A stretch of DNA of 64,000 nucleotides. Source: Halostella limicola (GTDB lineage Archaea > Halobacteriota > Halobacteria > Halobacteriales > Natronoarchaeaceae). The stretch lies in assembly GCF_003675875.1 (NCBI RefSeq), contig NZ_RCDI01000001.1:1240001-1304000 (forward strand). Direction: 5' to 3'. The notes under the pieces were generated by a model. It was not told the DNA's origin. It saw only the letters and a program-made list of their open reading frames with translations, and ran no database searches. Both the position numbers and the translations under genes were made by a program. Below, one piece after another: positions 52,837 through 54,713 of the stretch (position 1 is the stretch's first letter; the number at the start of each line of letters is the position of its first letter).

Positions 52837-52907
52837 GCGCTGGTAGTGTAGTGGTATCACGTGACCTTGCCATGGTCACAACCGGGGTTCAAATCCCCGC
52901 CAGCGCA
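52837..52907 (+). tRNA. tRNA-Gly (GCC), copy 1
   Basis: 71-base cloverleaf: acceptor GCGCTGG/CCAGCGC, discriminator A, D arm GTG-TAGTGGTAT-CAC, anticodon stem TGACC/GGTCA with loop TTGCCAT (anticodon GCC), T arm CGGGG-TTCAAAT-CCCCG. No CCA encoded, no intron. Identical to the copy at 54449. Confidence 0.97.
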
Positions 52908-52977
52908 TTTCTGCTCCGAACAATTCTAGCGAGCACCGCGTAGCGTGTGCTCGCTTCCCGTGAGCAGCAAAATCGCC

Positions 52978-53013
52978 CGTTGATTTGAGCAGGAACGTTG
53001 ATTTGAGCAGGAA
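52978..53013. repeat. two tandem copies of an 18-bp unit
   Basis: CGTTGATTTGAGCAGGAA occurs twice back to back (52978-52995 and 52996-53013) between tRNA-Gly copy 1 and the stray tRNA 3' end. No function evident. Confidence 0.85.
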
Positions 53014-53053
53014 AGTCGCAACGCCGAGCGCAGCGAGGCGACCGACTTTTCGC

Positions 53054-53112
53054 GTTCAAATCCCCGCCAGCGCATTTCTGCCGAACGCTACTCAGCCAGC
53101 GACCGCTGTGCG
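53054..53112 (+). repeat. stray tRNA-Gly 3' end plus flank (59-bp direct repeat, left copy)
   Basis: The first 21 bases are the last 21 bases of tRNA-Gly (T loop to discriminator A); the next 38 bases match exactly those following tRNA-Gly copy 2 (54499-54557). The rest of a tRNA is absent. Tyrosine recombinases use tRNA 3' ends as attachment sites, so this looks like an att relic. No integrase gene is nearby. Confidence 0.8.
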
Positions 53113-53181
53113 CGTTGCCCGTCTCCGGACGACCGCGCGCAGAAACTATATCACCCGATTCCGCGTACCGCCGCTGGTCAG

Positions 53182-53910
53182 ATGACCGACCCCGACGACG
53201 CCCGCGGCGAGACTGCGCGAGGGTACGACGCGCTGGCCGAGCGCGACGGCGACGGGTGGGAGAGCCCGTGGCACGACAACCCGCTCCAGCGCCACTACTC
53301 GTGGCCGGCCACGAAGGCGATGCTCCCCGAACTGGCCGACCGGCGGGTGCTTGACGCGGGGTGCGGCGTCGGCGACCACGTCGAGTGGCTCCTGGACCGG
53401 GGCGCGACAGTCGTCGGCGTCGACGCCAGCGAGGCCGCCGTCGACCGGGCTCGCAGCCGGTTCGACGACGCGGCCGCGGCGGCGTTCCGACGGGCCGACC
53501 TGACGGAACCGCTCGCCTTCGACGGCGGCGCCTTCGACGTCGTCCTCAGTCACCTCGTGCTCGACCACGTCGCGGAGTTGCGTCCCGTGTTCGAGGAGTT
53601 CCGGCGAGTGCTGTCTGACGGCGGCGCGCTCGTGTTCGCGGTCGTCCACCCGATGCAGTACTACGAGGAGTACGATGCGGTCGAGACCTACTACGACGCC
53701 GCTGCGGTGGAGGTCGGGTGGGACGACGCAACGGTCACGTCGCACCACCGGCCGGTCGGCGAGATCCTGAACGCGCTCGTCGGCGCCGGCTTCCGCCTCG
53801 ACGAGGTGGCCGAACCGCGCCCGCGCGAGGAGTACCTCGATCACGCGCCCGAGCGGTGGTCGCCCGCGGAGCGACCCCAGATCCTCTGCGTCAGGGCGCG
53901 GGCCGACTAA
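53182..53910 (+). CDS. class I SAM-dependent methyltransferase
   Basis: 242 residues, ATG at 53182. Motif I is VLDAGCGVGDHVEWLLDRGA (about residues 56-75), with the acidic end of strand 2 in VVGVDASEAAVDRAR and motif IV near FDVVLSHLVLDHV. It resembles UbiE/Methyltransf_11-type small-molecule methylases; the substrate is unknown. It lies between the two 59-bp direct repeats formed by tRNA-Gly 3' ends, so it may be cargo of an inserted or duplicated segment, although its composition matches the host. Confidence 0.85.
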   Translation: MTDPDDARGETARGYDALAERDGDGWESPWHDNPLQRHYSWPATKAMLPELADRRVLDAGCGVGDHVEWLLDRGATVVGVDASEAAVDRARSRFDDAAAAAFRRADLTEPLAFDGGAFDVVLSHLVLDHVAELRPVFEEFRRVLSDGGALVFAVVHPMQYYEEYDAVETYYDAAAVEVGWDDATVTSHHRPVGEILNALVGAGFRLDEVAEPRPREEYLDHAPERWSPAERPQILCVRARAD

Positions 53911-54005
53911 CCCTGTTGCGATCGGAGCGGCGGTCGACCTCGAACACCGGATCATTCTCACCTACTGCCGATATTTTAATAACCATACATCGCGAAATAT
54001 CCGGC

Positions 54006-54392
54006 GTGCGTCGCTACTGGCTCGCGGTCTTCGGCGCGGCAATCCTCGTGTCACAGGTCGCCCTGTTCTCGCTCGTCGGGGTCCCCCAGCACGTCGGCTG
54101 GACCGTCGCCGCCCTCCTCTGTTTCGGCCTCGCCGGCGCGGCGTTCGTCGTCGCCGGCGTCCGCGAGTACCTCCCCCTGGCCTCCGCGGCGGCCCCGTGG
54201 TACCGGTTCGCCGGCGTCGGCGACCTGCTGCTCGCGCTCGGCATGTTCCTCAACGGCGTCTCGATGGTGCGAGGCGACGAATCGACGGTGTTCGTCGGCC
54301 TCATCGCTGCCGCGGGGGGCCTCGTGCTCGCCGCCATCGGCGTCGACTACCTCCGGGGCGGGGTGCACCTCGACACCTCCGTCGTCCAGTGA
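54006..54392 (+). CDS. small membrane protein (four helices)
   Basis: 128 residues from a GTG at 54006; no ATG exists upstream in frame after the A/T-rich box (ATATTTTAATAACC, ~25-35 bases before), which fits a leaderless GTG start. Four hydrophobic segments (about residues 5-25, 29-50, 65-83, 92-112) and no charged motif. Unrecognised family. It lies between the methyltransferase and tRNA-Gly copy 2, inside the tRNA-repeat-bounded segment. Confidence 0.65.
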   Translation: MRRYWLAVFGAAILVSQVALFSLVGVPQHVGWTVAALLCFGLAGAAFVVAGVREYLPLASAAAPWYRFAGVGDLLLALGMFLNGVSMVRGDESTVFVGLIAAAGGLVLAAIGVDYLRGGVHLDTSVVQ

Positions 54393-54413
54393 TCCTCGGT
54401 CGAGTTGGCTACA

Positions 54414-54422
54414 TTTATATAT
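54414..54422 (+). promoter_or_regulatory. TATA box of tRNA-Gly copy 2
   Basis: TTTATATAT lies 27-35 bases before the tRNA 5' end. It differs from the promoter of copy 1, so the 5' flanks are not duplicated. Confidence 0.55.
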
Positions 54423-54448
54423 CCCCGTCTCGTGATTTCGAGTGAAGG

Positions 54449-54519
54449 GCGCTGGTAGTGTAGTGGTATCACGTGACCTTGCCATGGTCACAACCGGGGT
54501 TCAAATCCCCGCCAGCGCA
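54449..54519 (+). tRNA. tRNA-Gly (GCC), copy 2
   Basis: Identical in all 71 bases to the copy at 52837 (acceptor GCGCTGG/CCAGCGC, anticodon loop TTGCCAT). The 38 bases after it equal those after the stray 3' end at 53054, not those after tRNA copy 1. Confidence 0.97.
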
Positions 54520-54557
54520 TTTCTGCCGAACGCTACTCAGCCAGCGACCGCTGTGCG
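54499..54557 (+). repeat. 59-bp direct repeat, right copy (tRNA-Gly 3' end plus flank)
   Basis: The last 21 bases of tRNA-Gly copy 2 and 38 bases of flank, identical to 53054-53112. The pair brackets about 1.4 kb with two protein genes. Confidence 0.85.
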
Positions 54558-54640
54558 TGTCGCTCGTCAGTCGTGGGCAGCACAATCGTCCGGAGGTTTG
54601 AACTATGCGAACGCGAGCGCCAGTGAGCGTTCGCCATCGA

Positions 54641-54661
54641 GTTCAAATCCCCGCCAGCGCA
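54641..54661 (+). repeat. second stray tRNA-Gly 3' end
   Basis: Twenty-one bases identical to the tRNA-Gly 3' end, about 120 bases after tRNA copy 2 and followed by a diverged version of the same flank (TTCCTGTTGAACGCC). It repeats the arrangement seen after tRNA copy 1. Confidence 0.8.
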
Positions 54662-54713
54662 TTCCTGTTGAACGCCAGCAGCAGGGAGAGCCGGACCGAG
54701 ATCCCGCGGCCGG

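Follow-up and report, generated by a model that had tools for sequence, protein, structure and literature searches.

What accounts for the stray tRNA ends that follow two identical tRNA-Gly(GCC) genes in the haloarchaeon Halostella limicola? The locus lies in a 64,000-nucleotide stretch of contig NZ_RCDI01000001.1 (hereafter the window, to which coordinates refer unless another sequence is named). Its initial annotation proposed that repeated integration or recombination at tRNA 3'-end attachment sites had left 59-bp repeats bracketing two genes, and that the cargo of the locus may vary between strains.

The sequence facts behind this proposal are sound. The two 71-nt genes, identified by ARAGORN and Rfam, are identical and both lie inside an 80-bp exact repeat. 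The 21-mer GTTCAAATCCCCGCCAGCGCA, which runs from the T-loop to the discriminator base, occurs exactly four times: at the two tRNA ends and at two stray positions, 53054-53074 and 54641-54661. The 38 bp past the first stray end (53075-53112) are the same as the 38 bp past the second tRNA (54520-54557) and, because they follow the 21-nt end in both places, the repeat measures 59 bp. No integrase lies between the tRNAs and the stray ends or near the locus, where the neighbouring genes examined with Pfam encode a SAM methyltransferase, a small membrane ORF, a putative RNA methyltransferase (PF02598) and a short-chain dehydrogenase.

Each stray end in the window is the 3' border of a defined unit of 140-170 bp. 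Folding and comparison with relatives gave a common order for such 'tRNA-tail units': tRNA 3' end, a T-rich start (TTTCT), hairpin 1, an antisense segment S', hairpin 2, and a segment S. S duplicates the 3' part of the host tRNA, beginning at the T-loop and ending with the discriminator base, and S' is the reverse complement of the T-loop region and part of the T/acceptor 3' strand (GGATTTGAAC for a tRNA with GTTCAAATCC). Since S' pairs with S, the stretch from S' through hairpin 2 to S forms one long hairpin. Units measure about 90-190 bp including the S copy, contain no genes, and have left and right ends unlike in sequence. In these terms the locus reads as follows:

52837-52907, plus strand: tRNA-Gly(GCC) copy 1, host gene of unit 1 (ARAGORN, Rfam)
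52908-52972, plus strand: unit 1 hairpin 1, TTTCTGCTC...GAGCAGCAAAA (sequence, folding)
52978-53013, plus strand: unit 1 antisense tRNA-end segment S' (GATTTGAGC at 53000-53008), within an 18-bp tandem duplication
53011-53051, plus strand: unit 1 hairpin 2, with sense-strand cap GAGCGCAGCGA (folding; match to covariance model R1, E 4.4e-4)
53054-53074, plus strand: unit 1 stray S, copy of the tRNA-Gly 3' end from T-loop to discriminator base (sequence)
53075-53123, plus strand: hairpin 1 start of a truncated further unit, complete in sister species; this is the 38-bp repeat of the initial annotation
53182-53910, plus strand: SAM-dependent methyltransferase gene between the two tRNA-unit arrays, a bystander outside the units
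54006-54392, plus strand: small membrane-protein ORF, a bystander without Pfam match
54449-54519, plus strand: tRNA-Gly(GCC) copy 2, host gene of unit 2 (ARAGORN, Rfam)
54520-54581, plus strand: unit 2 hairpin 1 (sequence, folding)
54592-54604, plus strand: unit 2 antisense segment S' (GGAGGTTTGAACT)
54607-54634, plus strand: unit 2 hairpin 2 (folding; match of the S'-hairpin 2-S part to model R1, E 4e-8)
54641-54661, plus strand: unit 2 stray S, copy of the tRNA-Gly 3' end (sequence)
54662-54680, plus strand: probable hairpin 1 remnant after the last S, TTCCTGTTGAACGCC... (sequence)

The window order is therefore a first tRNA with unit 1 and its S, a truncated unit reduced to hairpin 1, the methyltransferase and membrane ORFs, then a second tRNA with unit 2, its S and a remnant. 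Two sister species (G001 and G003) carry a complete second unit where the window genome has the truncated one, so what had been taken for a 59-bp bracket around two genes is a stray end followed by the start of hairpin 1 of that further unit. In these two species, too, the first array is followed by the methyltransferase gene, which was seen in that position only within the genus; fixation of the two genes across distant haloarchaea, which would have counted against the initial proposal, was thus not found. A mobile two-gene cassette is rejected: the element carries no genes and runs from a tRNA end to the stray end that comes after it, and such units are found order-wide.

Two further observations concern the window sequence. 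An exact 18-bp tandem duplication (CGTTGATTTGAGCAGGAA) covers S' of unit 1 at 52978-53013, and a sub-threshold Rfam match to the box C/D RNA sR45 (54266-54308, minus strand; 25.9 bits, E 0.003), probably due to chance, falls within the membrane-protein ORF. At a permissive E-value, Rfam returned nothing credible for the window region beyond tRNA, which alone reached the gathering score; at that score, ten further unit-bearing loci also yielded tRNA only. Comparison of the locus with plasmids and phages by blastn gave no phage match, one Natronorubrum replicon with tRNA-Gly pieces, and unrelated actinobacterial matches in the methyltransferase region.

Own-end copies are not particular to tRNA-Gly(GCC). 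In this genome, 11 of 44 tRNA genes score at least 15 for a downstream copy of their own last 30 nt and none does so upstream; the hosts are Arg-tct, Lys-ttt, Met (two genes), Gly-tcc, Lys-ctt, Arg-cct, Gly-gcc (two), Phe-gaa and Tyr-gta, and decayed cases occur at Thr-cgt, Val-gac and Pro-tgg. Near-identical ends aside, the best or joint-best match of each copy is its own tRNA. Across three genomes of the genus, allowing at most 3 mismatches of 21, an own-end copy was found downstream of 44 of 129 tRNA genes and upstream (within 300 nt) of 0 of 129; control pairings of a gene with the end of a tRNA that carries another amino acid gave 19 of 5168. Own-end copies are thus not chance matches. 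A more distant copy was seen at tRNA-Gly(CCC) of this genome (G000:C2:887737-888614; L010, L088), where an insert with apparent coding sequence separates the tRNA from a unit-like hairpin and stray end about 790 bp downstream; in the sister species the units are directly at the tRNA.

The reach of the family was assessed with a covariance model, R1, of 64 positions, built from a curated seed of seven S'-hairpin 2-S segments. Matches were obtained in 142 of 145 Halobacteriales genomes, which represent 47 of 49 genera, and numbered as many as 31 in one genome; in a phylum-wide sample, the only match outside Halobacteriales was a weak one in a single genome. Among 29 fetched loci, 28 have a same-strand tRNA just upstream whose own end is copied at the unit border, the hosts being tRNAs for Arg, Leu, Lys, Met, Gly, Pro, Ser, Val, Asp, Glu and Phe, and the lone exception (L128) has a tRNA-Met-like sequence upstream. 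One locus of genome G044 without an ARAGORN tRNA (L188) holds an intron-containing tRNA. No tRNA was detected directly upstream at two places in G003 (L153/L167 and L164). The first of these (L153, G003:C1:578729-578914) has two tail units, preceded by a stretch with the motif CCGCGAAATCGT..GGAACGC, which is also present in L164, and Rfam gave no match there. A public-genome scan for the tRNA-Gly(GCC) end returned 120 stretches, many with several copies, and all listed titles were haloarchaeal or uncultured archaeal.

Both the fold and its fit to the host tRNA are supported by comparison among units. In 53 distinct sequences, 96% of the cells scored for pairing are paired, and both sides had changed in 119 cells, compared with 35 (sd 4) for shuffles and at most 19 for slid structures; the alignment was fitted to the model and is biased towards covariation, but the distance from the controls is wide. 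For most units, shuffling the unit almost never yields an S' match as good. In 74 of 84 units, S' implies exactly the T-loop nucleotides that the host tRNA has. Agreement with the host is imperfect in the T-stem/acceptor part of S': in an anchored test, the unit's own tRNA ranked in the top 10% for 27 of 84 units (8.4 expected, p=2e-8), and in an unanchored test this part alone was not significant.

Units come and go between close relatives. Within the genus, those at Gln-ttg, Glu-ttc, Ser-cga, Val-cac, Arg-gcg and both Asp genes are present only in G003, that at Val-tac only in G001, and that at Phe-gaa in the window genome and G001, being absent from G003. Where the flanks of filled and empty sites align, the empty site has the tRNA end joined to the sequence found after the last S of the filled site. 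Such pairs were obtained for Arg-gcg (44/48 identical), Asp, Ser-cga and Arg-cct; they differ by exactly one unit, and the filled sites have about 21 bp of tRNA duplicated. Some of these differences may be deletions through recombination between S copies. Arrays reach five units (Ser-tga of G044), and the order of units in the tRNA-Gly array differs between the related genomes G044 and G019. The third units of these two arrays (L045 in G044, L046 in G019) depart in type from the rest: this kind of member has a long hairpin CCGAGGGGCTGCTCCGCAGCCCCTCG but no S', and occurs in both species at different places in the array order.

Similar units also stand behind different tRNAs. Those at Lys-ttt#3, Arg-ccg#1 and Arg-tct#1 of G044 are near-identical save for S' and S, each of which is fitted to its host, and further similar pairs were found at Leu-gag/Leu-tag and Val-gac/Leu-tag. 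The Gly-tcc and Arg-tct units of G003 have a common hairpin 1, and their hairpin 2 stems differ at several pairs through compensating changes (GAGACC/GGTCTC vs CAGCCC/GGGCTG). The initial proposal of insertion or recombination at tRNA 3' ends therefore survives in so far as the events are repeated, occur at the DNA level and leave a content that varies among relatives; reading the arrangement as a scar confined to this locus is not supported.

We lean, with little better than even confidence, towards the view that tail units are order-wide, gene-less palindromic repeats that target tRNA tails and spread by DNA copying. The spread by copying, the junction microhomologies, the template switching, and the identity or absence of an enzyme are the steps that we infer. 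DNA of a donor unit, spanning hairpin 1 through hairpin 2, would be copied in behind a new tRNA, with the left junction formed at the T-rich sequence that follows tRNAs (TTTCT) and the right junction at the T-loop sequence common to most tRNAs (GTTC(A/G)AATC). With the right junction placed there, S would begin at the T-loop and be host-specific beyond it, and the tRNA would be left intact. S' would then be rewritten against the S of the new host by template switching between inverted repeats, a process documented at such repeats (PMC7202029, PMC8794818), and arrays would grow and shrink by recombination between S copies. The driver may be replication or gene conversion, hairpin-driven template switching, or a recombinase acting in trans on sense-strand hairpins. 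More tentatively, and with somewhat less than even confidence, we propose that the unit is a gene-less mobile DNA element that adapts itself to its target, gaining direct (S) and inverted (S') tail copies on insertion through templated copying, so that one backbone can serve many tRNAs and cause no damage. To our knowledge, such a self-retargeting mechanism of templated copying has not been described for other known elements.

The strongest rival, which we nonetheless consider rather unlikely, treats the units as functional RNA elements. The pre-tRNA transcript would run through them, and they would be excised as structured small RNAs, act as a cis switch in which S' pairs with the tRNA T-loop and S releases it, or take part in 3' processing. 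The strong stem covariation, the order-wide conservation of the fold, and the position of units always downstream of a tRNA on the same strand agree with this reading, as does the release of RtT RNA from a tRNA operon in E. coli (PMC4986893). Near-universal units, such as those behind tRNA-Gly(GCC), could also mean a function. However, if pairing in sense RNA were under selection, G·U should be favoured over A·C among isolated stem mismatches, and no such preference was seen: the units have 67 G·U and 65 A·C, close to shuffled sequence (59:64) and unlike the tRNA acceptor stems of the same genomes (18:2). A first count restricted to model positions gave 25:25. This argues against a purely RNA-level role, as do the variable presence of units at a given tRNA within a genus and the failure to match any Rfam family. 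By contrast, when one inverted repeat is corrected from the other as template during DNA replication, both sides change with no intervening G·U.

One feature speaks for the recognition of a particular strand. Both hairpins often end in a common cap, C-GA-(G/A)C-GNA-G(C/T)-GA-G, made of tandem G-A mismatches, two pairs and a GNA loop. The motif GA(A/G/C)CGNAG(C/T/G)GA lies on the sense strand in 54 cases and on the other in 1, which suggests that a single sense strand, either ssDNA or RNA, is probably read by something. Passive maintenance of palindromes alone does not predict this bias, and an RNA- or ssDNA-binding partner would; the bias therefore counts in favour of the RNA reading as well. 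The cap resembles a K-loop, but an H/ACA or K-loop (L7Ae) RNA was set aside: no ACA box was seen at the expected place, and there is no G·U preference.

Strand-specific caps and the lack of a G·U preference would also suit non-autonomous ssDNA transposons, moved in trans by a transposase of IS200/IS605 type (Y1) or a REP-associated (RAYT-like) one that reads the sense-strand hairpins, and haloarchaea do hold many palindrome-bearing IS605-derived elements, the palindrome-associated transposable elements or PATEs (PMC3119063). We hold this to be improbable: IS605-type elements and PATEs do not duplicate their target (PMC3119063), whereas the units duplicate about 21 bp, and the rewriting of S' to a new host is left unexplained.

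Least probable of the three, in our judgement, is that the units are scars of integrative elements, each S being an attR-like end that persisted after loss of the element body, placed there by tyrosine integrases that differ in specificity. Integrase att sites of this extent, reaching from the T-loop to the end of the tRNA, are known (PMC8371274). Yet no integrase occupies the gap between tRNA and stray end, which holds the same two-hairpin filling at every tRNA and in every species; the units are too short for an integrase gene, and S' is a target-specific antisense copy. The elements that do integrate at tRNA-Gly(GCC) can be compared directly, as three IMG/VR contigs carry the end of this tRNA within an identity block of about 45 bp that starts in the anticodon loop and marks provirus att ends:

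L142, 12880-12934: provirus att end for tRNA-Gly(GCC), IMG/VR contig
L143, 500-416, minus strand: provirus att end for tRNA-Gly(GCC), IMG/VR contig
L144, 985-1029: provirus att end for tRNA-Gly(GCC), IMG/VR contig

In L142 and L143, the host unit or its start directly follows the att end. Integrative elements at tRNA-Gly(GCC) thus use another type of site and lie between the tRNA and older units. An origin of the units from the attP of an archaeal integrase was rejected on the same IMG/VR scan, its provirus att ends being of a different type. In G003 (C5:32432-55263; L247, L164), tRNA-Arg(TCG) has a copy of its 3' end, accompanied by a tail unit, at a distance of about 22.7 kb downstream; this suggests an integrated element between this tRNA and its old unit and lends the scar reading some support. 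A GC-rich, possibly structured stretch ending in CCGCGAAATCGTGCGGAACGC precedes this distant copy.

If the preferred reading of templated DNA copying is true, haloarchaeal tRNA genes carry, order-wide, a repeat family that rewrites part of itself to each host gene, and offer a natural system for the origin of inverted repeats and their correction by template switching. The same system could be used to ask what draws DNA to tRNA 3' ends, and whether the hairpins affect how tRNAs are expressed or keep integrating viruses out of tRNA genes. The annotation of tRNA loci, work on small RNAs and the prediction of att sites would likewise be affected in haloarchaea, in which a stray tRNA end readily passes for a proviral scar. 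The family is apparently undescribed: we found no description of it in the open literature, although an older or subscription paper may exist.

Among known systems, REP elements, which are associated with RAYTs, are short extragenic imperfect palindromes with strand-oriented hairpins that form tandem arrays; they are not known to target tRNAs or to carry a target copy. The units share their palindromes, oriented hairpins and arrays, and are set apart by description, being tRNA-targeted and copying their target. In the E. coli tyrT operon, 178-bp repeats lie downstream of a tRNA gene, each with a 19-bp copy of the tRNA-Tyr end. The likeness to tandem units behind a tRNA with copies of its 3' end is evident, but the units are general to many tRNAs and probably move between them, and we know of no antisense S' segment in the E. 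coli repeats. The covariance model of the RNA of these repeats, RtT (RF00391, PMC4986893), had 0 matches in this genome and matched in E. coli as a control. At the att sites of tRNA-targeting tyrosine integrases, the 3' part of the tRNA is duplicated and the tRNA left intact (PMC8371274), as with the units, which differ in having no integrase and common hairpins across all tRNAs, the att blocks at tRNA-Gly(GCC) being about 45 bp long. PATEs are gene-less haloarchaeal elements with palindromes near both ends, as are the units, but have IS605-related termini, no target duplication and no reported tRNA link (PMC3119063). Also close in kind is SMR-A of Haloquadratum walsbyi, a gene-less, multi-copy element of about 110 bp with inverted repeats, a highly uniform sequence, a strong preference for the palindromes of IS605-type elements, no target duplication and an unknown mode of mobilisation (PMC3119063). 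The units are likewise short, gene-less, palindromic, multi-copy and strongly selective in their target; unlike SMR-A, they target tRNA 3' ends, duplicate about 21 bp of them, and apparently rewrite part of themselves to match the host.
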